Of a DNA stretch of 37,852 nt, positions 5,949-36,463 are shown one piece after another. The stretch covers positions 1 through 37,852 of IMG/VR virus record IMGVR_UViG_3300020578_000206, one strand, 5' to 3'. Under the pieces are notes generated by a model. It was not told the origin of the DNA and did no database searches. It saw only the letters and a list, made by a program, of their open reading frames with translations. A program made the position numbers and the translations under genes. Numbering within the stretch: the first letter of the stretch is position 1; each line of letters begins with the position of its first letter. This stretch comes from a virus.

Positions 5949-6008
5949 TTAGTTGACGGGACCCGGCATGCCGGGTCCGCCGCCACAACTGATGCTCACA
6001 TAGTTCAT
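5949..6008 (-). CDS. Possible 19-residue coupled micro-ORF, Gly/Pro-rich
   Basis: An ATG overlaps the stop of the upstream Pro-Thr repeat gene (ATGA) and opens 19 codons ending in [11 protein letters not shown], followed by TAA. The GPGMPGP stretch looks collagen-like. There is no independent ribosome-binding site, so any translation would be by coupling. It could equally be a remnant of a longer C-terminus in another frame, or simply untranslated spacer containing a palindrome. Nothing beyond the open frame and the overlap supports it. Confidence 0.25.
5959..5978. repeat. Perfect 20-bp GC-rich palindrome
   Basis: GGACCCGGCA is followed directly by its reverse complement TGCCGGGTCC. It lies in the 96-bp gap between the Pro-Thr repeat gene and the large fibre gene and could form a very stable short hairpin or bind a dimeric protein. 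No T-run follows on the minus strand, so it is not a standard intrinsic terminator. It could be a processing or attenuation site, or a by-product of the GPGMPGP codons of the micro-ORF. Confidence 0.7.
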
Positions 6009-6727
6009 GATGCCGGTGATGGAGTTGGTGTTGGTGTCACCGGCATGGTTGGTGTCGGTGTTGGTGTCACCGTCTTGGTTACAGTCTGCGTTGGTGTATT
6101 TGTTACAGTCTGCGTTGGTGTATTTGTTGGAGTTGGGGATGCAGTTATAGTTTGTGACGGTGTTTGAGATTGGGTTGGTGTTTGGGTCACCGGCATGGTT
6201 GGTGTCGGTGTTGGTGTCACCGTCTTGGTTACAGTTGGTGTCTGCGTTGGCGTCTGCGTTGCAGTCTTGGTCGGAGTTGGGGATAGAGTTACTGCTGGCG
6301 TCGCCGTCTTGGTTGGTGTCGGTGTTGGTGTTACCGTCTTGGTTGGTGTCGGTGTTGGTGTTACCGTCTTGGTTGGTGTCGGTGTTTGCATCACCGTACG
6401 GGTTGGTGTCGGTGTTGGTGTTACCGTCTTGGTTTGTGTCGGTGTTGGAGTTGATGATCGTGTTGGGGTTGGTGTTGGGGTTGGTGTTCGAGTGGCAGAG
6501 GCGGGCGGTGTCGGCGAAGGTGGCGGCGGCGCCGTGGATGCAGATGGACTTGGTGATGGTGTTAATACGCAGTCAGGATTAATTCTAGCGAGAAGATTTT
6601 CAATCGCTTGAAGTCTAGTTTCAGCAGCACTGAGTTTTGCCCCATTGCCCTTTAAACTTGAAAATGCTGGTCTGAGGTTTGGTAACAGTGGGTGGTCGCT
6701 GGGGCTGGGGTTATTCAGGCTAGACAT
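6005..6727 (-). CDS. Pro-Thr repeat tail protein (240 aa)
   Basis: ATG 6727 is preceded by AAAGGA at good spacing. Residues 1-55 include a short amphipathic helix ([14 protein letters not shown]) followed by a single Cys. Residues about 56-240 are a low-complexity stalk of TPTPTPT units mixed with [11 protein letters not shown] and SPS segments. No catalytic motif is visible. It sits in the tail module next to a paralogous repeat gene, so a virion fibre or decoration role is inferred. The Thr/Ser/Pro composition resembles O-glycosylated stalks, and a glycosyltransferase gene lies elsewhere in the window, but no direct link is shown. Identical DNA repeats make the length likely to vary between relatives. 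Confidence 0.85.
6029..6480. repeat. Direct repeats coding Pro-Thr units
   Basis: A 30-bp unit (on the plus strand, GTCTTGGTTGGTGTCGGTGT plus TGGTGTTACC) occurs in tandem around 6308-6370. A stretch of about 50 bp is identical at 6036-6085 and 6186-6235, and its first 38 bp recur at 6810-6847 inside the neighbouring gene. The shared segments offer substrates for recombination within and between the two repeat genes. Confidence 0.8.
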
Positions 6728-6742
6728 AGGTAATTCCTTTAA

Positions 6743-7336
6743 TTAGTTGGATGCGGATGGAGTTATGGTCGGAGTTGGGGATAGAGTTACTGTTGGCGTT
6801 GGAGTCTGTGTCACCGGCATGGTTGGTGTCGGTGTTGGTGTCACCGTACGGGTTGGTGTCTGTGTTGGTGTCTTGGTCGGAGTTACAAACTCATTAGGAA
6901 ACCGTGATGGTGTCACGCTTGGTGTTGGTGTATGGGATTTTGTTGGTGTAACTGTTGGTGTGACTGTTCTAGTGATTGTAGGAGTTGGAGTAATGGAACA
7001 TAGTGGATAGCAGTTCACCAGTCTGGCAACTGTTGCTTCCAATGCAGCAATTCTGTTTGTTAGTGCTTTAATTGTTTCAACAGAATTTCTCTTTTCTGCT
7101 TTCGCGTGTCTTTTATCTGCCATTGCGAGAGACTTAGTAATATCCGCAGTCCTTTGCATACCAAAACCACCATCAGTTCTTGTATATTCCTTAGTAATCT
7201 GTTCGGTGCGCTTCTGCTCAGTAGCAACGAAAGAATTTGTAACATCTAGGTAAACAAGATCACCATTAGGACCAGTAACAACAATAGTACTCGTACTCGC
7301 TGTATTGCTTGGTCTATTTTTGTACGGATTACTCAT
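6743..7336 (-). CDS. Coiled-coil plus Pro-Thr repeat tail protein (197 aa)
   Basis: The start ATG 7336 lies one base after the stop of the giant upstream gene, so translation is probably coupled. Residues about 1-60 are polar. Residues about 62-107 are Lys/Arg/Glu/Ala-rich with a heptad-like stretch (IKALTNRIAALEATVARL), suggesting a coiled coil. It ends in CYPLC, after which residues about 115-197 are TPTPT-type repeats. The layout (helix, Cys, Pro-Thr stalk) parallels the next gene, and both end in similar repeats, so they look like diverged duplicates. The function is unknown; a tail-associated structural role is inferred from position. Confidence 0.85.
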   Translation of the reverse strand: MSNPYKNRPSNTASTSTIVVTGPNGDLVYLDVTNSFVATEQKRTEQITKEYTRTDGGFGMQRTADITKSLAMADKRHAKAEKRNSVETIKALTNRIAALEATVARLVNCYPLCSITPTPTITRTVTPTVTPTKSHTPTPSVTPSRFPNEFVTPTKTPTQTPTRTVTPTPTPTMPVTQTPTPTVTLSPTPTITPSASN

Positions 7337-7337
7337 G

Positions 7338-10300
7338 TTACACCACTGCTATTACTCTGAGGTCTTTAACTTTAGGCACGATTACTCCGTTGTTGCTGTA
7401 CATCATAATCTTGATGGAGTATCTAGTAAATGGAACAGCGAATTGTTGTTCTGCTTTGCTGTATCCTGTGTTTGTGGGCGAAGTAGGATAGAATTTTTCA
7501 GGTATAGCGAATGAATACTCAGTAAAAGTACCTTCATCTGTTGCAACCTGAGTTGCTTGCAGCGGATTCACATCCATACGCATCCAGTTAAGATCCTCAA
7601 ATGGAACATCTGAATCTGCGGTTTGAACTTTTGCCCAAACTTCAATTGCAGTTTTGATTTCTGTAGGAGGACTGGTTGCGTAGAAGAAGTTTGGAAGATT
7701 TGCAGTAAGATAAACTTTCAGATCATCACATTCCAAGCCAGGATTTAGATCAACTCGGCGTGAGATATATCTGGCAACTGGATGAGCAGGATCGTCAATA
7801 TCGTATATTGGTCTTGCAGAGTGTTCTAGTTCCCAAGATGGAGGATCGGCAGGACCAACTATATTGTCGATCAAAATGGCGCTGAGTCTTTCCGAATCTA
7901 TAGTCGGAGACACACTTGCATCTGTATTGGTAACCAGTATTTTCAGTTTGCTGTTTGCATTCAACTTGAACGCAACTGGTCTTGGTGCAAAGTTTTCATT
8001 CAGAGGAATATCAAACTCCTGCGTGCCGCCGGTGCTATTAGGTAGTACAAGTTTTGCGGTAACTGTGCTATCGTCAAACTTTAGTTGTTGACTCACAATC
8101 TTCATTGCATCCACTTCAAAATCATCATCGTTATCATTAAATCCATATTGCCCCACCACAGGTTTGAATTCAATACTAAGCGGATCATCTGTTGGAGTGG
8201 CAAACTTACAAGTATTGATGGCAAACATCAGGTCTGCATTTTGATCCGCAGACCAAGTACTTGCATTTTGCGATTTAAAGAATACCCCTGCATATGGTTG
8301 CTGAGTAATTCGAGTTCCTTCAGTACCAAGTGCAACCTCTCCCATTTCTGCGATATAGCACTCGTACTCGGCGCTGTTGCTCATGACAACAATGGAATAC
8401 TCGCCTGGAATCAAATAAACAGGAGTAGAAAATTTGAAACGAGTATATGTTTTATCGTTGTTTACTGAAGGAATCTGGCTGGAGTCTAATCCGTTTGCAA
8501 GGTTAACTTCATCGGCGTTCTTAAATACTTCTGCAAACGGCAGAATCATGGACGAGTGAGGATATCCATTTACTGTTGGTCTGATTTGTACACGAACTGG
8601 TGGGGCAGAGTTTCCACTTGGAGCATTCTTAAAGAACAAATCTATGCTATGCACCCACACTCCCTTTGGACTTTTGGTAAAATCAACTAAGAATGTTTGA
8701 GCAAGTGGATCGCTCCATGTAGTTGTCGTTTGTTCGGACACACTATTCTGCACTCTAGTAACCACATCACGAACTACACGCTCGTCTGTGACACTTTCGC
8801 GGCGAATAATGGGAACGCGAGTAGATACAATGGTGTTCTCTTTAGTTTGCAGCATTCCTTGTGCAAAGTAACTTGCATCCGCAGAAGTATTGCTTTGAGG
8901 CAAGTTATTCGTTGCACTATCAGTGAGCCTGAACTGCCGCTCGCCTGTTTTGAACACTCCTCCTGGCAGATTGAATACTACTTCCACTTCACCGGCAAGG
9001 TTGGTCTTGATTGGATTACTGGGTGTAACTGGTTGACCATTAAACTCACAGTACTTGTTCACAGAAGTATTGTCAAAGAATGCGTGAAGAATTGTATTTG
9101 GTTTCAAAGATATGCCGGTAATTACAATTCTTCTGGCGCGAATAAACGGAACCACACTCACATCTACAACTCTATCTCCAAGTTCTCGGGTAACTCGTTG
9201 TGGTGTGACTATAGTCCTGATACCTTCGCGGGTTTGTCTATTTTCGATAGTTTCTGTCACAAGACTTGATTGTGTTGTTCTTGTTGTGGTATCAGTCCTT
9301 CGACCTGCCCGCTGAATTCTTGTTTCTACTCGTGGCGCTCCTATTGCCTCGGTAGTGCTGGCACGAACACCAGTCCATGTGGTTTCCCAATCATTCCATT
9401 GAGTACCGAAGGCATCTCGCATTCCTGCCCATGCGTCATTTTCGCCTTCCAAGTTAATGGTAACTGCTGGCCGGGTTCTAGTATCAACCCATGTGTCACT
9501 GCTTGGCTCAAGAGATGCGCTTCCTAACCAACTCACAATATCAAATGGGTTTACACTAATTGCTCTGCTTGCAACAGGTTGTACAATGTATTGATTTGGA
9601 GCATCCTCGTCATAGAAGAGAGTGATCACACCATCTGGCGAAATCTTGAAGTCTGTATTTGTATTTGGTGGTATTGGCTCAAATTCAATATGACGAGTTC
9701 TGAATCGTGGGCGCAAGTGTCCGTTTTCAAAGTCCATAGAGCAAGAATAATATGGACTAAACACATCTCCAACTCCATGTCCCTTGAAGTTGTCAACAAA
9801 GATGCCGTTCTTGATGCGCTCTGCTCCACCCAATGCAGGATCAGGAATAGACAATTCTGCTGCTTCTTTTTCTAGCAGACTAAGTGTGGTATAGTATTCT
9901 ACTCGCTCGATGCGCTTTTCTAATTTAGCAATATCGTTCATGGTAAAGCGTTTGTTGTCAATGTAATCCACTACAACAGTTTCAGGACCAAATGTGTATT
10001 GCGGAAGCACTAAAGTGTACAGAGACATAGACTCAGGCACATCTTTTGGAGATGCAGGGTGCATAGAAGGATTGCCTGGAAAAATCTTCAATTCACGAGT
10101 TTTCAGCAGAACTAATTTATCTCTACGGGGAATGTAAAAATCGTATGTTATTGAAGGCCGAGAGTTATTGATTCCAAGCGCAGGTAGAACTGTTTCTGAT
10201 TCTCCACGCGCGGCGCGAACAACAAATGCTTCGTTGTTTTCTTGAATCAATGAATTATCCCGTAGAGGACAATCTTCATCCAATGCGTTTGGACGATTTG

Positions 10301-13300
10301 CTTCAGTTGCTGTAAAATCATTCATGTCTGCTAGTGCTGTTGCAACTCTAGCCGGAGTAGAATTTTCTCTTGATGGTCTGTAGTCTAAGCAGTTACGAAG
10401 TTCAAATGAATATCCAAAAGTTGGACTGATGTGCAGAGGAATATCTTCGTAACGAACAAAGAATGGATGGTGATCGTTATGCTCGTATGAGGTTAAGGTG
10501 AATGGGCCGCTACCACTATGCTTGAAAAATTTCAATCGAACAAACAGAGTATAGTCAAGATTTCCACCTTTGTTTTTAAACATACCAGTTTGTTGTTTGA
10601 GAGTTTTCAAAGAACTTTTGGTAATTACAATTTTGGAATGATCGTAAAAGTTGTCATTTATTCCGTTAACAAGTCTAAAGTACTTGGTGATATCTCGTTT
10701 ACCAGTTGGTGCAGTGCTATCCCATGCAATAACTTCATCAACTGATATTACATCAGAGATTCCAAGATTTGTAATATACTCTTCTGGCAGAGAAGGACTC
10801 TGGAACGAGTTGGTATTGTTTGTTCCACCGTCATCGTCACCTTCCCACAAATCCCATCCGTTCTCTCCTGAAGGATTAAAGTTTACGATCCATGGATCGT
10901 CTGTATCGGCTGATGGGTCAAACTGAAAAATTCCATCCCAATTTTGCAGAGGAACCATGAAGTATCCATCTTCATTAAAGTATTTGTTCCATATTCCATC
11001 AGGGCCATCATCATATTCAGAAATAACAGATGCAGTTTTCTTTCTGAAATTGGTGGTATCACCATCTTGCGCTTGGGCAGAAACTATAATTTCCGCGTGA
11101 AATGGTTTGCCTAAGATGTCAAGTGTATCAGCCGGCGACTCGTACATAATGTACATGACTGTTTTGTCCCCATTCACCACTGCTGTGATTAGAGAACTAG
11201 GACCGGGTTCACTAACAGAAAATACTTTATTGGTTTGGGCGTTGAATAGTAAAATATTTTCGGGATCATCTACTTCAAAGTAACTTGCAGTAGGAGTTCC
11301 CAATGCTGCGCGGAGAGCATTTTGTAACCCTTCACTAGCAGGAGTAGAGGCCTTGAAAGTGTAAAGAGTTTTTTCAGATGTTTCTTGGATATTTGCTGCG
11401 ATACCAACTCCATTGCCCGATAGGTTTGTCAGAATGAATAGATTACTGCCATACGATTTCCATTCTAAACTGCTATTTTCTACAAATCCTGGACCTGAAC
11501 CAGTTGTACTACTGTTGAGTTTTTTAGTGAATGATTTTTTGCAATCGTACTTGACTGTAGCAAAATCTTTGATTTCCTTCAGAGAAGACAAAGAAGGCAG
11601 ATCGAAAAGTGCAAGATTTGCCTTTGGAGCAAATAGCACGGTGTCATAGTATACGATGGTGTTTCCACCGTCTTCCACCTCGGTTTTTTCAGTTCCACCA
11701 GTGAGAGAGATATCAAATAATTCTACAGTTCCTGTTATCGCATTATTGCCTGTTAATAGTGTATTCTTATAGCGGAAACGAATATGATCAAAGTCTGCAA
11801 AATAAGAATCGCCTGTGATCTGAACATCACACAAATGCACATTTACTCCGTTTTCGTTCGGTGTTACTCCGCGAATACGAGCCGTGCCTACAAGGGTTTT
11901 TTCATCATTGTCCACCGTGCCCGAAGGAGCCAACTCATTCCACAACTCTACTTTTGGATGAGAACTCCATGAAGGAAGTCGTAAGTCGTTCGGTGCGGTG
12001 CTATCGCCTGTGGGTAGTTTGCATACCACATAATTTCCAAGACTCAACTTGACTTGTTCGCCCTTGACTTGTTCTGCTGTTCTTGCCTTGTCAAGTGGAA
12101 TAAACTTGGTGTTTTGATTCTCAAACTCGTATCCATAGATGTATGCCTTACCAGTACCAACACCAACTACCAGTTTGCTTTTGGCTTCTTCGATGGCAGT
12201 TATCACCTCATTAGAGGTTGGGTCTGCCGCAGATGGCCCCCACTCAGGATACAGTCGCCCAAGCGTGTACTTGCCAGCAAATCGAGGATCTATAAACTGA
12301 CCAATATGAGGAAACTTTGCAAGATAGTTTTGAGGAGGTTGGCCATCCTGCGACAGAACCACTCGGTCTACACCATCAGCGAGCGTATACAGTTCATCAA
12401 CCACATCTTCTGTGATTGGAATCTGAGACTTCAAGAAAAAACGGTTGGTGGAGTTGTTTAACTTTGTGTACGACTCCGAAACCATGATGTCTCCCTCTGC
12501 GGGAGTTCCAAATATCATGTGTAGCAAAGTGGTGCCGTAACCTTCTGCACGGAAATCTACCTCTCCCTGGCGAGCAAGGAATGTGTCTGCATCGGACACA
12601 ATACCTTTCCACGCAAGAAGGGGGGAGTTAGGGTCATTTCCCACCTCTCTGTATCCATACACACTGAGATTGGCTGGGAATCCTTCTGGAACTTCAGCGG
12701 TTCCTGTCAGGCGTCTTACCGAATATGGTGTATCGTTTGAGTTGCCTACAATCTCTCTTGGAGTTGAACGAAGCAGACAAGTTCTTTCGTTATTGAAGTA
12801 CTCTTCAATGTCGATCTGAAACGGTTTAACTGTATAAGATCCTGATTCATCGTAGGTTCTTCGTGCAAGAGTTTCTTCCAAATCACTATAGATCGGATAC
12901 TTGACCGAGTAACGAATTGTTCCATCAACTACGCGAGTAAGTTCTACAAAGTTAGTAGTTTTGTATTGGTCAGGATCAGAAAGCGTGTCTTGATTGGTGA
13001 ATATCAGTTGATCCAGTATAAGATCAACTTTATAGCGATCTGAGCCAGGTGCTGCATAGTTGTATGATCCGTATGCAGGATCAAGCAAAGTTTTGTCTGC
13101 ATCTGCATCAATTACTTCACGCTTGATGGTGAAACCAACTCTAGATGACGGGAACTGGAACAGTCTGACTCCGACTAAATCTCCTTCTTCAACAAGTACC
13201 CAGCCGTCTCCAGTGAGATTATTATTTACAGGAATTTCGCCTGGAGAAGATACCCATTCTGTTTCCACAGCAGTATCGTCTGGATTAGGATCAGCACCAA

Positions 13301-25256: not shown

Positions 25257-26597
25257 TTACGGTGCAGGTCCACTCAATAACAATGCTGAGATTTCGGTTG
25301 GTAATCCACTCTGTATGGTAGAGTAGTTCTTACATAGATTTAGTTGCGCTTCTTTCCAATCTGATTCTTTACCTGTTTCTGCTGCTTTCAGGAATAGATT
25401 TGCAAACTCAAGATATGGTTTGTAGAACCTCACCATATGATTGTCTCTAATTGATTCCTCTGCGTGGTTCTTTCCGAATTTCAAATTTTTAACCATCGGA
25501 TCGACATACTTCCTGGCTTGCAAAAGTCTCATGGGAAGGGTACGCTTGCTGCACGGTACAGATGCAATGTAGTTGATGCTTGCCATCACTCCAGTAGCCA
25601 CCACTTCTTTCAGAGATTGTAGTTGCAGCATCCACGGTTTAATCAGAGACTTTGATTCGGCGAATAAAGTCGCAGACTCTTCATACAAACTATCATCTGC
25701 TCGTTCAGTATCGTCACTTCTACGAGCCTTGACTCGTCTACTAACAATAGTTCGCAGTTGTCCTTTTAGCGCATTCCATGAGCCAGGATACATGGAAAGC
25801 ATGGTTTCCAATGTTCCGTATCCTCCCTCAGTACTATTTCCGGCAGAATCAGTTTCTACTGCGTAATAGATGTTATCTTGTTCATCTAGCCAGAACTGTA
25901 CAAGTGATCCATATGGAGTTTCGATGTGTCCAACTTCTACAAGACTTTCTGGCGTATGTTCCACGCTTTCTTTTACGCTCATTCCTCTGCGTAATTCTTT
26001 GAACAGAGACTGTGCATCTGACTTGGAAACTCCATCGGGAATGCCGCTCATGAATGCTTTCAGATTGTTTTCAGAGGCAGCACCGCGCATCTTGCTTGCA
26101 GACATACCTACAACGCCTTCGGCATCGGGATCGCGCTCACCGGCGCTAACCACTTCAAACTCGAATGAGTATCGCTTATCAGGATCTTTGTGTGTGAGAT
26201 ATGGTTTGATTACTTTACGCATCTCTTCCACACGATCTCCACCCACAACCATGATGACCTTTTTGACTCCTTCAGAATCAAACTTGGTCATTGCATCAAA
26301 CATGGTGTTGACTCCTGCATCATCTACAACCTTTACTTTGTCACCAAAGAATTTGCGTAACCACTTGATCTTTACGCCAGAATTTAGCGGATTCTTTTTC
26401 GGATCGTTGGTGCGAGAAGGATACAGGAGTGCAACTCCTCCTGCTTTAGACGCTGTGCTTTCTAGAGCGTCCACTAGTTTTTGATGCCCAGAGGTAGGGG
26501 GCTGAAAACGACCGAAAGTGAATACGACAGTTTTGCCCTTCAACGCTTCGTTGAGGGTGTTCCTGTCGCTCTTATCCTTCCAATCGCTGTATTTCAT
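25257..26597 (-). CDS. HIGH-type nucleotidyltransferase-like protein (446 aa)
   Basis: Residues 22-171 form a nucleotidyltransferase (cytidylyltransferase/adenylyltransferase) fold. VVFTFGRFQPPTSGH gives the T/HxGH nucleotide-binding motif at residues 35-38, and GMSASKMR at 164-171 corresponds to the family's ISSTxxR motif. VIMVVGGDRVEEM lies between them. Similar domains transfer AMP or CMP to small acceptors (NadM, CoaD, TagD types); the substrate here is unknown. Residues about 215-285 are a small beta region and 310-446 a helical domain I do not recognise. The N-terminal stretch before the core contains TLNEA, a possible L-x-E prohead-protease site. The ATG is preceded directly by an extended Shine-Dalgarno complementary to 15 nt of the 16S rRNA tail. 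Confidence 0.9.
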   Translation of the reverse strand: MKYSDWKDKSDRNTLNEALKGKTVVFTFGRFQPPTSGHQKLVDALESTASKAGGVALLYPSRTNDPKKNPLNSGVKIKWLRKFFGDKVKVVDDAGVNTMFDAMTKFDSEGVKKVIMVVGGDRVEEMRKVIKPYLTHKDPDKRYSFEFEVVSAGERDPDAEGVVGMSASKMRGAASENNLKAFMSGIPDGVSKSDAQSLFKELRRGMSVKESVEHTPESLVEVGHIETPYGSLVQFWLDEQDNIYYAVETDSAGNSTEGGYGTLETMLSMYPGSWNALKGQLRTIVSRRVKARRSDDTERADDSLYEESATLFAESKSLIKPWMLQLQSLKEVVATGVMASINYIASVPCSKRTLPMRLLQARKYVDPMVKNLKFGKNHAEESIRDNHMVRFYKPYLEFANLFLKAAETGKESDWKEAQLNLCKNYSTIQSGLPTEISALLLSGPAP

Positions 26598-26808: not shown

Positions 26809-27957
26809 CTACCAGTTCTTCACGGCAGTAAAGTTCTGGCGTGAGAACTCTAGACGGTCTACCAGTTTGTAGACCCCTTTTGCAGCAACTGCTACAAATC
26901 CTTCAGGATTCGCAACTCGGAATCCACTATCTGTTGGGTAGAACGCACCAATGGTTTTGACTTGACTCATCTTTGCCACTATTACATTCTTGGCAACTGC
27001 GATGCGTTTGTGTAGATCGAACGCTTTCTTTAGACCAGTTGCGTTAGAGCGAATGCGCTGCGCTAATGCTTGATCTGGCTTGGGTTGTCCCAATACAAAC
27101 TTGATGAGCGCAGGAACTGATCCTTGATCCACTCCTGCACGAATGCTACTATTGAAATACCTAGTAACCACATCTTTTATAGCAGAGTCTTTCTGAATGG
27201 TTTGAAGCGCAACAGTAACATCCTTGTCTGCCTTAAAAGTCAGAATATCTGCCAGCAGTTTTTCTAACTGTTTGGTTTCGGTTGCAGTCATGGTTGCAAC
27301 TCCCGTTGCATCTACAAACGATGCATCTTCAATCCATGCTTTAGAATTGCCTCTCAGATTAGAGATATTTGGATTGAAGGATGCGCTGAGAGACTGAAAG
27401 TTTGTTCCCTTATACACCGTATGAAACACGATTCCGATTTGTGCTTTGGTGATACGCTTTCCAAGATCACTCTTAGTGGGAACTGCATACATGATAGTAT
27501 TGGGTTGAAAGGTATAGTAGTTCTCTCCATCAATGTTCTGCGTCTTTATGTCGCCTGGAGTGAACATTAAGTCGCCCTGTAGAATACCTTGAATTCCTGC
27601 ACCTTTCAGAGCATCGAACGCAGCGTGTAGTTTAGCAGCAACACCTGATCCTCCGTGATTGGTGTCAATATCTGCGTGTGAGTAGTTTACTTTTGGTGTT
27701 TTGTTGAATATACTTTTGGTTGCCACAAAAAACTTTTTGGTCTGCGGGTCTTCTCCACAAATCACAGCAGGCGCACCATCCCATTTCACAGAAACAAATG
27801 CACCACCTTTGGCATCTCCTCGCAAAGTCTTGATCACATCATTCACCACAGAAACAGCAAGATCAATACCCCTGATCCCACTCAGGAAGATTGCGTCTTC
27901 CAAGTGTTCTAAGTGGGTGTTTTTAGATTCTGAAATGAACGATAGAAATGATTTCAT
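26809..27957 (-). CDS. Nucleotidyltransferase/ligase-like protein with capsid-targeting leader (382 aa)
   Basis: The start overlaps the upstream stop (ATGA). The first residues, MKSFLSFISES, match the T4 capsid-targeting consensus (MKTYQEFIAEA in internal protein III), with a predicted prohead-protease site after Glu10. The body carries motifs in the order of covalent nucleotidyltransferases (DNA/RNA ligases, capping enzymes): KWDG at 58-61 (motif I, Lys58 as candidate nucleophile), QGDLMF at 127-132, IGIVFH at 174-179, EGFV at 352-355 and YKLVDR at 363-368 (motifs IV and V). The family is known to me only as a phage domain of unknown function (DUF6267-like). Ligase-like chemistry is an inference from motif spacing; catalysis, substrate and fold are unproven. 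Confidence 0.88.
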   Translation of the reverse strand: MKSFLSFISESKNTHLEHLEDAIFLSGIRGIDLAVSVVNDVIKTLRGDAKGGAFVSVKWDGAPAVICGEDPQTKKFFVATKSIFNKTPKVNYSHADIDTNHGGSGVAAKLHAAFDALKGAGIQGILQGDLMFTPGDIKTQNIDGENYYTFQPNTIMYAVPTKSDLGKRITKAQIGIVFHTVYKGTNFQSLSASFNPNISNLRGNSKAWIEDASFVDATGVATMTATETKQLEKLLADILTFKADKDVTVALQTIQKDSAIKDVVTRYFNSSIRAGVDQGSVPALIKFVLGQPKPDQALAQRIRSNATGLKKAFDLHKRIAVAKNVIVAKMSQVKTIGAFYPTDSGFRVANPEGFVAVAAKGVYKLVDRLEFSRQNFTAVKNW

Positions 27958-30610: not shown

Positions 30611-32023
30611 TCAGTATTTACAGTCAGAGTCGCCTTTGCCGCCAGGACAACTCTTGGTGCTGCCACCTTTGCCTGCCCATAGATCTTTGCACGCCCAATA
30701 CTGTGCGCTGAGTTTATCTTTGGCCTGATCGCAGTTATGCCGAGCGCGGAATGATTCTCTGGCTTTGGCGCTGTAGTTGTGCCCATATCCGTCTGCACCA
30801 TAGTGTACAATCTTTTCCTCTCCATTTTGACATCCTTTTACCATGCGCTTCTTGCCTGGACGAGTGCTTGATCTTGGCTTGTTGCATGGCATTGATTCTT
30901 TATCCACCTGATCTGCTTCAGCAACAAACTTAGAGAATCGTTTGCCGGTAAATGATTCTTTACTGTCTGCTTTTCTCCAACCACCACCATGCTCTTTGTA
31001 CCATTTCGCGGCCCATCCATTCGCGTATGCGCTTGGATATACACGGAACTTGGACTTTGCAAGCGATTTCGCCTTTGACCAAAGTGCAGGATCAGTTGGT
31101 TCGTTCTCTTCATGCATATCCACAGAAATTTCAGAAACAGATTCACTTGACACATCCTCAACAACAGTTAGTTTTTTGTCTCTATTACCCTTCACGCTGA
31201 AGGTGAGGTAGTCTGTGATGGCTTCGTTGTGATCCTCTTCCTTACGCGACATCCACAAGTCTGACCAGTCTGTAACCTTGCCGGTTTTGTCGGCTTTGAA
31301 AATCATGGTTTCACCTGAAATTGTTGAGTACGACACAATGTAGTGATAAAATCCATGACGGTACAGGGTTTGAAATGCGCTTTCGCCTGGTGTGGTTGAG
31401 ATCTTCATGGTCTTGATTAGATGAATTTTGCCTTCTGATTTTTGTACTTCATCTAGCACACCGCCTGCGCCTGCTTCTTTTGTTTGTTCAGTTACCCACT
31501 TGGTTAACTTATACTTGTTGCCAGTCTTGCCCTTCATTTGCACAATCTCAGCACTTTCCTCCCACCACTCCAATGCATTGGCGATGAGTTTGCCAAGAGT
31601 AATCTTGGGAACCAATTGAAACTTTGCTCCCGCAGCCTTAGTGATATCCATGAGATCAATACCAGTTTTGGACGCTTTGGTAACTACATCAAGCACATAG
31701 TTTCTGAGTTCTTTGCTTGCGGTGAATGAGGCTTCTTCGATATCTTTGTGGGAGGTCATGTGTGGTTTCTTGTCCTTCCTGCGTTTCTTTTCTGCACGGC
31801 GTTTCTGACGAACAGCAGACGCTTTCTCACCTTTGCTCATCTCTCCCGAGGTTTCAGGTGTATCTGAACTCACTCGCTTAGATGGCCGACATTTAGGGTA
31901 TGCGCCATGCTTTTTACTTGCTGCTTCTCGTCCGCATGGAGGGTGTTTGCCATCAACTTTCTTAGAGATGTCAACCCACTTCTCCTTGAACCAGCGGTCG
32001 AGATTTTCATTTATGTTAGTCAT
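30611..32023 (-). CDS. Basic Cys-containing phage protein with KWVDISKK and HYG-type motifs (470 aa)
   Basis: ATG 32023 is preferred: AAGG lies 10 nt upstream, whereas ATG 32032 has it only one base away. Residues about 5-50 contain ENLDRWFKEKWVDISKKVDG, then HPPCGRE and YPKCRPSK, a putative Zn-binding motif found in many marine phages. Residues about 65-90 are strongly basic (SAVRQKRRAEKKRRKDKK). Residues about 330-360 (KFRVYPSAYANGWAAKWYKE) and the C-terminus (MPCNKPRSSTRPGKKRMVKG; HYGADGYGHNYSAKARESFR; SAQYWACKDLW) are modules also known from large eukaryotic viruses. The function is unknown; nucleic-acid binding or virion location is plausible. Confidence 0.88.
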   Translation of the reverse strand: MTNINENLDRWFKEKWVDISKKVDGKHPPCGREAASKKHGAYPKCRPSKRVSSDTPETSGEMSKGEKASAVRQKRRAEKKRRKDKKPHMTSHKDIEEASFTASKELRNYVLDVVTKASKTGIDLMDITKAAGAKFQLVPKITLGKLIANALEWWEESAEIVQMKGKTGNKYKLTKWVTEQTKEAGAGGVLDEVQKSEGKIHLIKTMKISTTPGESAFQTLYRHGFYHYIVSYSTISGETMIFKADKTGKVTDWSDLWMSRKEEDHNEAITDYLTFSVKGNRDKKLTVVEDVSSESVSEISVDMHEENEPTDPALWSKAKSLAKSKFRVYPSAYANGWAAKWYKEHGGGWRKADSKESFTGKRFSKFVAEADQVDKESMPCNKPRSSTRPGKKRMVKGCQNGEEKIVHYGADGYGHNYSAKARESFRARHNCDQAKDKLSAQYWACKDLWAGKGGSTKSCPGGKGDSDCKY

Positions 32024-32042
32024 GTGCTTCATACCTTGAAAA

Positions 32043-35579: not shown

Positions 35580-36164
35580 TCACTCCATTTCCTCGTAAAT
35601 CACATTCCACTTGGGTTGAACGCCCTTAGGGGCGTAGGCGTGTTGTAGAAATCCCCACACCTCTTTCTCTTCCATGCGAAACAAGAACTTCTTGCCTCGG
35701 TCGCGGCCTTTGAGCAACGACGAGAAGAAGTCTTTCATGGCTTCTTGTGCCAGCACGATGTTCTCTTTCCCTGATCCAAACTTGAAATTGGATAGCGTCT
35801 TGCCGATACCTGCTGACTCGTTTGTGCCAATCAGAGAGAACTCACTAGCATCCTTGAAGATGATGCTGTGTTGGTTGTACTTTTTGCCTAGTTCAATGAT
35901 CTGCTTGCGAGAGATGCTCGGAATGAACAGGCTAGGTTCAATCGAGAATCCTTGGTCGCCCTTGTAACCACCGCGCATCTCAATGAACCCAAGGCCCATC
36001 TTGCGTACTTCGCCCTTCATCTCCATGTATAACCTATTGTTGTCTTCTGCCGAGTTGTCGGAGCGGAATGCACTCACCACACCAAATGCCCGGCCTGGTT
36101 CTTCGATGTGCTGATAGATACGAGAGATGCTGCTTTCTGCAATAAGGGTTCTGTATGATTTCAT
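35580..36164 (-). CDS. DUF3293-like protein with capsid-targeting leader (194 aa)
   Basis: The start overlaps the upstream stop (ATGA). The first eleven residues, MKSYRTLIAES, follow the T4 capsid-targeting sequence (MKTYQEFIAEA), with an I-x-E prohead-protease site at Glu10. Residues about 26-108 match the DUF3293 pattern: FGVVSAFRSD, NNRLYMEMKGEVRKMGLGF, GGYKGDQGFSIEPSLFIP and QIIELGKKYNQHSIIFKD. The C-terminal 60 residues (FLFRMEEKEVWGFLQHAYAP) are unrecognised. DUF3293 function is unknown. The leader suggests that the mature protein is carried in the head and injected with the DNA. Confidence 0.85.
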   Translation of the reverse strand: MKSYRTLIAESSISRIYQHIEEPGRAFGVVSAFRSDNSAEDNNRLYMEMKGEVRKMGLGFIEMRGGYKGDQGFSIEPSLFIPSISRKQIIELGKKYNQHSIIFKDASEFSLIGTNESAGIGKTLSNFKFGSGKENIVLAQEAMKDFFSSLLKGRDRGKKFLFRMEEKEVWGFLQHAYAPKGVQPKWNVIYEEME

Positions 36165-36457
36165 TGTGGGCGTTTCTTTTTTGCTAAACCTCGTTTGCGA
36201 TCCTGATACTCTCGTTCTTCCATGAAGATTTTTTGTGCTGCTTCGTCATACTCCATCCATGTTTCAAGCAATCTATTGTAGCAATCTTCTTTACTTAGTT
36301 TACCCTGTTCCACCAAATTGTAAAGCAGAGTTGTTCGCATTAGGTAATCTTTTAAGTTGGCATACAATAGTTCACGCTCAACGGGGTCCAGATTTGAGTC
36401 TGCATCTGACATGATGATGCCCCCTTTCTGCGTCGAGGATGATCTACACTTCACCAT
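36161..36457 (-). CDS. Small helical hypothetical protein with two plausible starts (98 or 83 aa)
   Basis: Two in-frame starts are both supported: ATG 36457 with GGAGG at 7 nt, and ATG 36412 (MSDADSNLDPVEREL) with AAGGGGG about 6-7 nt upstream. The first 15 residues of the long form (MVKCRSSSTQKGGII) look unlike the acidic-helical rest (ELLYANLKDYLMRTTLLYNL, EEREYQDRKRGLAKKKRPQ). A late-promoter-like ATAAATA overlaps the upstream start. Transcription from it would produce mRNA using only the second start. The function is unknown. Confidence 0.8.
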   Translation of the reverse strand: MVKCRSSSTQKGGIIMSDADSNLDPVERELLYANLKDYLMRTTLLYNLVEQGKLSKEDCYNRLLETWMEYDEAAQKIFMEEREYQDRKRGLAKKKRPQ

Positions 36458-36463
36458 ATTTAT
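36457..36463 (-). promoter_or_regulatory. T4-late-like promoter ATAAATA
   Basis: CATAAATATG on the minus strand contains ATAAATA, seven of eight bases of the T4 late promoter box TATAAATA. T4-like phages use such boxes without a -35 element, recruited by gp55 and gp33. It overlaps the first start codon of the downstream gene, and initiation about 10-12 bp downstream would leave only the second start. No second exact copy was noticed in the window. Confidence 0.35.

Follow-up and report, generated by a model that had tools for sequence, protein, structure and literature searches.

A predicted SAM lyase behind a putative capsid-targeting leader: a probable injected head protein of a T4-like phage

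The window analyzed here, 37,852 bases long, is a fragment of an IMG/VR virus. The best matches of its gp6-like protein are the baseplate wedge proteins of Methylophilales phage Melnitz and the pelagiphages Mosig and HTVC008M, and we therefore regard the window phage as T4-like. The gene under study (Table 1) opens with an ATG codon and its product has the N-terminus MKSYRTLIAESSISRIYQHIEEPGR, in which the leader MKSYRTLIAE is followed by SSISRI. A first-pass annotation had given the product of this reading frame a DUF3293-like domain, and this assignment holds: the PF11697 (DUF3293) profile matches with an E-value of 2.3e-7 and 31.8 bits, passing the Pfam cut-off of 25. The start of the gene overlaps by four bases (ATGA) with the gene on its 5' side, an arrangement that is kept in the relatives L001-L005. 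The sole copy of ATAAATA in the window resembles the core of a T4 late promoter. It is on the coding strand, some 45 bases ahead of the start codon that the upstream gene probably uses, and L002-L005 have xTAAATA in the corresponding position despite differing surrounding sequence. The exact late promoter TATAAATA was searched for and not found. The one ATAAATA site gives a weak hint that the lyase may be expressed late, as packaging would require.

Table 1 Features of the lyase gene and of related elements in the window.
Feature	Position	Strand	Remark
SAM lyase-family (DUF3293/PF23780) protein with predicted capsid-targeting leader	35580..36164	-	194 aa
Predicted capsid-targeting leader MKSYRTLIAE, codons 1-10	36135..36164	-	predicted prohead-protease cut after E10
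E10-S-S-x-x-R15 junction	36120..36137	-	from alignments of relatives
Enzyme core, residues 27-128	35781..36086	-	ferredoxin/PII-like fold; matches T3 SAM lyase and Svi3-3
G65-x-Y67	35964..35972	-	counterparts of Svi3-3 G56 and Y58, by alignment
E76	35937..35939	-	counterpart of Svi3-3 catalytic glutamate E69, by alignment
Q98	35871..35873	-	counterpart of Svi3-3 Q104; next residue H99 against E105 in Svi3-3
C-terminal extension, residues 129-194	35583..35780	-	subfamily-specific; low-confidence model
Gene 5' of the lyase gene	36161..36412	-	start MSDADSNLDP after AGAAAGGGGG; kept in L001-L005
ATAAATA, T4-late-promoter-like core, 5' of the two-gene unit	36457..36463	-	suggestive only
DUF6267 protein with leader MKSFLSFISES	26809..27957	-	second leader-bearing protein of the window

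In the capsid-targeting sequence of T4, targeting depends mainly on residues 4 and 7 and processing on residues 8 and 10, with a cut after L/I-x-E (PMC9026906). The window leader has Y4 and L7 at the targeting positions and I8 and E10 at the processing positions. The processing motif IAE↓S (the arrow marks the putative cut) is present in the window and in L001-L005, and hydrophobic-x-E↓SS is found in most relatives. When the starts of all ORFs of at least 50 aa in the six frames were scanned for the motif.[KR][ST][FY]..[FYLI][ILVM].E, it was found to open 2 of the 191 window ORFs, namely the lyase gene and the gene at 26809-27957, while shuffling the N-termini of 34 genes gave 0.0005 matches per set and two matches in none of 2000 sets. 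Judged from these counts the lyase leader is not a chance likeness, and the earlier observation that two differing window proteins carry a common leader stands. The second protein had been called ligase-like, for which we found no match; it is a DUF6267 protein (PF19782, E 1e-96). The lyase leader had also been described as even closer to the T4 consensus than that of its partner, which is untrue at the key targeting positions 4 and 7, because the lyase has Y4 and L7 there and the DUF6267 protein F4 and F7.

The DUF3293-like domain had been thought to be without an assigned role. This has to be revised, as PF23780, a profile search of PDB sequences, the predicted fold and the active-site residues all place it in the phage SAM lyase family. 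The PF23780 (S-AdoMet_lyase) profile matches the window protein with an E-value of 2.8e-7 and 31.0 bits, passing the cut-off of 28, and relatives score better than the window protein itself (39.8 to 70.1 bits), with E-values for distant relatives of 5.7e-19 (the marine virus AG-345-L05), 2.3e-19 (S-CREM2) and 4.8e-18 (CP220). Single-sequence searches of the PDB with the lyase were uninformative. A profile built from eight relatives gave T3 SAM lyase (E 0.015) and Svi3-3 (E 0.041) as its top two matches, both weak, with residues G56, Y58, E69 and Q104 of Svi3-3 in register in the alignment.

An AlphaFold2 model was made from 17 window and IMG/VR sequences. It has a mean pLDDT of 61 and is confident for the core only, with values of about 71-88 over the greater part of residues 21-60 and 81-130, a dip near 61-80 and about 35 for residues 1-10; over residues 1-14 there is no confident structure. 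Foldseek searches with this model placed T3 SAM lyase and Svi3-3 at ranks 1 to 4 (E 8.5e-5 to 8.8e-4), and VIA gave Z-scores of 10.5 and 10.0 for T3 SAM lyase against about 7-8 for unrelated ferredoxin folds, the best match having an rmsd of 2.9 over 110 residues.

According to Guo et al. the strictly conserved residues of Svi3-3 are G56, E69 and Q104 (PMC7877911). Their counterparts G65, E76 and Q98 are aligned with Svi3-3 and are invariant among the relatives aligned. Svi3-3 Tyr58 pairs with Glu105, which is not strictly required, the E105Q variant being reduced only threefold in activity (PMC7877911); the window protein keeps the tyrosine (Y67) but has a histidine (H99) at the place of Glu105. 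The window protein thus has the profile match, the PII/ferredoxin-like fold and the G/Y/E/Q residues in common with the phage SAM lyases (T3 gp0.3 SAMase and Svi3-3; PF23780), and differs from them by the leader, which none of the five sampled T7-like lyases has, by the C-terminal extension, and by H99 in place of the acidic (E/D) neighbour of the conserved glutamine. Cleavage of SAM by T3 SAM lyase and Svi3-3 has been shown experimentally by others. Most likely the window gene encodes a SAM-destroying enzyme of this family, with SAM cleavage predicted from sequence and model. No relatives of the window protein were found in a scan of genome contigs or in plasmids, and DUF3293 is not mentioned in the literature searched. 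In PHROGs (phrog_2226) and in several GenBank records, proteins of the SAM lyase family bear the label “SAM-dependent methyltransferase” and are probably misnamed.

A packaged enzyme of this fold could instead act as an anti-CRISPR by cleaving SAM-AMP, which certain type III CRISPR systems use as their messenger and for which one phage lyase is already known. The SAM-AMP lyases belong to the same superfamily and have the same fold and catalytic Glu and Gln, but the threonine that contacts the adenine four positions after the glutamine (Thr112 in SAM-AMP lyase) is an isoleucine, I102, in the window protein, as in SAM lyase (PMC12255297). The fold and profile matches were to T3 SAM lyase and Svi3-3, from libraries that may lack SAM-AMP lyase structures, and together with I102 they make SAM-AMP a very improbable substrate compared with SAM.

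A similar leader, either N-terminal or internal, was found in relatives from T4-like phages that infect cyanobacteria, Campylobacter, Alishewanella and Microcystis, and the arrangement of leader and lyase is seen in CP220, Slickus01, P-TIM68, S-N03, S-CREM2 and Mel-JY01. The leader and junction read MKTFKEFLEE↓SSLSRI in AG-345-L05, MKTFNEFCSQLDE↓SSLSRI in L107, MKDFDSFLEEFDRDQESLEE↓SSLSRL in S-CREM2, MKNFEEFKEQAQEELEE↓SSLSRL in S-N03, MQFKQYILGE↓SSLSRI in Microcystis phage Mel-JY01, MKFKDYIK...KFNE↓SSLARL in CP220 and MNFVQLLESEINALSE↓SSLSRI in Slickus01. Across relatives both ends of the stretch before the enzyme are fixed, while its middle varies in length. E10, S11, S12 and R15 are invariant in alignments A2 and A4, which cover cyano-, Campylobacter- and Alishewanella-type relatives, and in one cyanophage subgroup the ESSxxR-type junction is replaced by GNxTxR. 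In S-WAM1, S-SZBM1 and P-RSM6 the lyase forms the C-terminal end of a longer polypeptide, and the leader element is internal and directly precedes the lyase domain (SFKEFLEE↓GNRTGR, TYREFIAE↓GNRTAR and TWQEFLDE↓GNRTSR, respectively). The ESSxxR junction is also kept in L201, L249 and L252 despite about 50 extra residues between it and the MKSF.DF start, and this conservation points to a separate role for the junction.

The leader counts from a first scan with the cyanophage relative were biased because MKTFKEFL was among the search patterns, and the scan was repeated without a leader pattern. This leader-blind scan gave 80 loci, one of which is cut off by the end of its contig. All of the remaining 79, which are not independent and are mostly marine cyanophage-like, reach a start codon and begin with MK[TS][FY]..F or MKSF.DF; the leader stands directly before ESSL[SA]R in 74 of them and is separated from it by a longer stretch in 5. 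The first scan had matched at least 434 cyanophage-type loci in IMG/VR, and the leader-lyase arrangement is therefore common in the sea. Since no bacterial DUF3293 relatives were found, T7-like lyases served as the leaderless control: none of the five has a leader, and their sequences begin directly at the enzyme.

It might be argued that the lyase is made during infection and is never packaged, its N-terminus either belonging to the enzyme or resembling a leader by chance. T3 lyase, the product of an early gene, is made inside the cell in this way. Within the small clade of the window, moreover, L002 has the leader MKSHKTVIAES with a histidine at position 4, and in L004 and L005 the leader is shortened to MKMTIAES and has lost the targeting half, so that packaging may vary even among these close relatives. 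The fused lyase S-SZBM1_194 is likewise absent from the 30 listed virion proteins of its phage (PMC9146016). Against this reading, the stretch is wholly missing from the T7-like lyases, varies in length between two conserved ends and has no confident structure in the model over residues 1-14, and the S-CREM2 relative was detected in virions (see below). On balance we consider an unpackaged lyase unlikely and take the leader as a putative signal for the head.

The relative in question is S-CREM2 gp6, for which 19 unique peptides were found in CsCl-purified virions (PMC10665884). Its authors proposed that gp6 enters the host and protects the phage DNA from restriction, and they cautioned that carry-over in the virion purification is possible (PMC10665884). 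This virion-associated SAM hydrolase has both leader and lyase in common with the window protein and differs in being 414 aa long with a long C-terminal region; a targeting leader is not mentioned in the available text (PMC10665884). In the S-CREM2 proteome the strict leader pattern is present in 4 of the 52 virion-detected proteins (the SAM lyase gp6, gp13, the kinase gp14 and the cytidylyltransferase gp154) and in none of the 167 others (Fisher p 0.003), and looser patterns gave p 0.003 and 0.015, values that are optimistic because the pattern was shaped after the proteins had been viewed.

A leader of this kind would be removed by a prohead protease. The gp21-type protease (PF03420) was not found in the 37.9-kb window fragment, which is uninformative because the fragment is a tail-module one, nor in eleven further short relatives. 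All four long IMG/VR leader-lyase records tested contain PF03420, although in one of them (G002) the matching frame holds an internal TGA, and S-CREM2 has it as gp143. It also occurs in a related 58-kb record that has no lyase and whose gp6-like protein shares 66% identity with that of the window. The recurrent leaders, the finding of the relative in S-CREM2 virions and the protease in the long leader-lyase records all support, by way of relatives, what the first-pass annotation had proposed, and no other interpretation of the window protein is as well supported as that of an injected head protein carrying a capsid-targeting leader. With the T4 internal proteins (IPI, IPII, IPIII and Alt) it would share the short leader, hydrophobic residues at positions 4 and 7, I8, E10 and the L/I-x-E↓ cut (PMC9026906), whereas the cargo would be a SAM-degrading enzyme in place of a direct nuclease inhibitor (IPI) or an ADP-ribosyltransferase (Alt).

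The family, the fold, the active-site residues, the recurrence of the leader and the coexistence with a prohead protease in relatives were computed here, and from them we infer a sequence of four steps for the window protein. The leader MKSYRTLIAE would bind to the prohead core like the capsid-targeting sequences of the T4 internal proteins. A gp21-type prohead protease would then cut after E10 (L/I-x-E↓) and leave the enzyme with the DNA. The enzyme would enter the cell along with the DNA, where the trimer would reform and convert SAM to methylthioadenosine and homoserine lactone. The resulting drop in SAM would disable SAM-dependent defences such as restriction-modification and BREX before the phage genes are expressed. 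We consider it probable that the lyase is loaded into the head like the T4 internal proteins and, once injected, depletes SAM in this manner. The SAM pool amounts to about 1e5 molecules per cell. At the turnover of Svi3-3, about 9.5 SAM per second at 25 C (PMC7877911), the 40 to 360 copies per head reported for T4 Alt and the internal proteins (PMC9026906) would use one such pool in about 30 to 260 s without resynthesis; by this arithmetic, which is not a measurement, the injected enzyme could be of consequence within the first minutes.

A packaged enzyme could also serve metabolism and not defence evasion, either by supplying homoserine lactone or methylthioadenosine or by lowering host methylation. 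In S-CREM2 (L010 gp8) and S-N03 (L079) a gene for a DNA adenine methylase is found a short distance upstream of the lyase gene, which would fit such a role and is in itself an odd pairing of a SAM user beside a SAM destroyer. Known phage SAM lyases, on the other hand, counter restriction and BREX (literature cited in PMC12255297), and early delivery by the virion suits defence better, so that we regard a metabolic role as rather improbable and keep to depletion of SAM against host defences.

Each of the two parts, targeting leader and SAM lyase, is known, while their recurrent union is undescribed in the literature searched. We lean towards regarding it as a recurrent cassette in T4-like phages of unrelated hosts, which would be carried in the virion and remove the cofactor of many defences before phage gene expression, unlike the leaderless T7-like lyases. 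T3 defeats restriction and BREX by SAM cleavage with a protein that first has to be made in the cell. If packaged, the lyase would act at once, and all SAM-dependent defences would be weakened by a single enzyme. Injected enzymes of T4-like phages may also be recognizable in sequence by the leader, as the strict matches in S-CREM2 all belong to the virion proteome, a kinase and a cytidylyltransferase included.

Some further proteins deserve mention. In S-CREM2 (L010) gp12 (7704-10313), annotated as a CRISPR-associated endonuclease (Cas9/Csn1), was detected in virions, and together with the sequence RFASFMAEAA near residues 18-27 this suggests that it may be head-targeted cargo. The S-CREM2 cytidylyltransferase, which has a leader and is listed there among the virion proteins, is 35% identical over 195 residues to a cytidylyltransferase-like protein of the window (25257-26597, minus strand) that has no clear leader; the gene for the latter and the DUF6267 gene are separate, and both products match parts of the 764-residue phrog_455. 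The window also encodes a DUF5872 protein (30611-32032, minus strand) similar to the PHROG “minor head protein and DNA pilot”, in which an internal KRFSKFVAEA at residues 366-373 (30914-30937) resembles a capsid-targeting sequence with its cut site, like those of the fused cyanophage proteins. Two adjoining genes at 6005-7336 on the minus strand have long threonine-proline repeats (TPTPTPT), and the protein encoded at 2-2794, where the record begins, has a long run of prolines at its end, at the record's edge.
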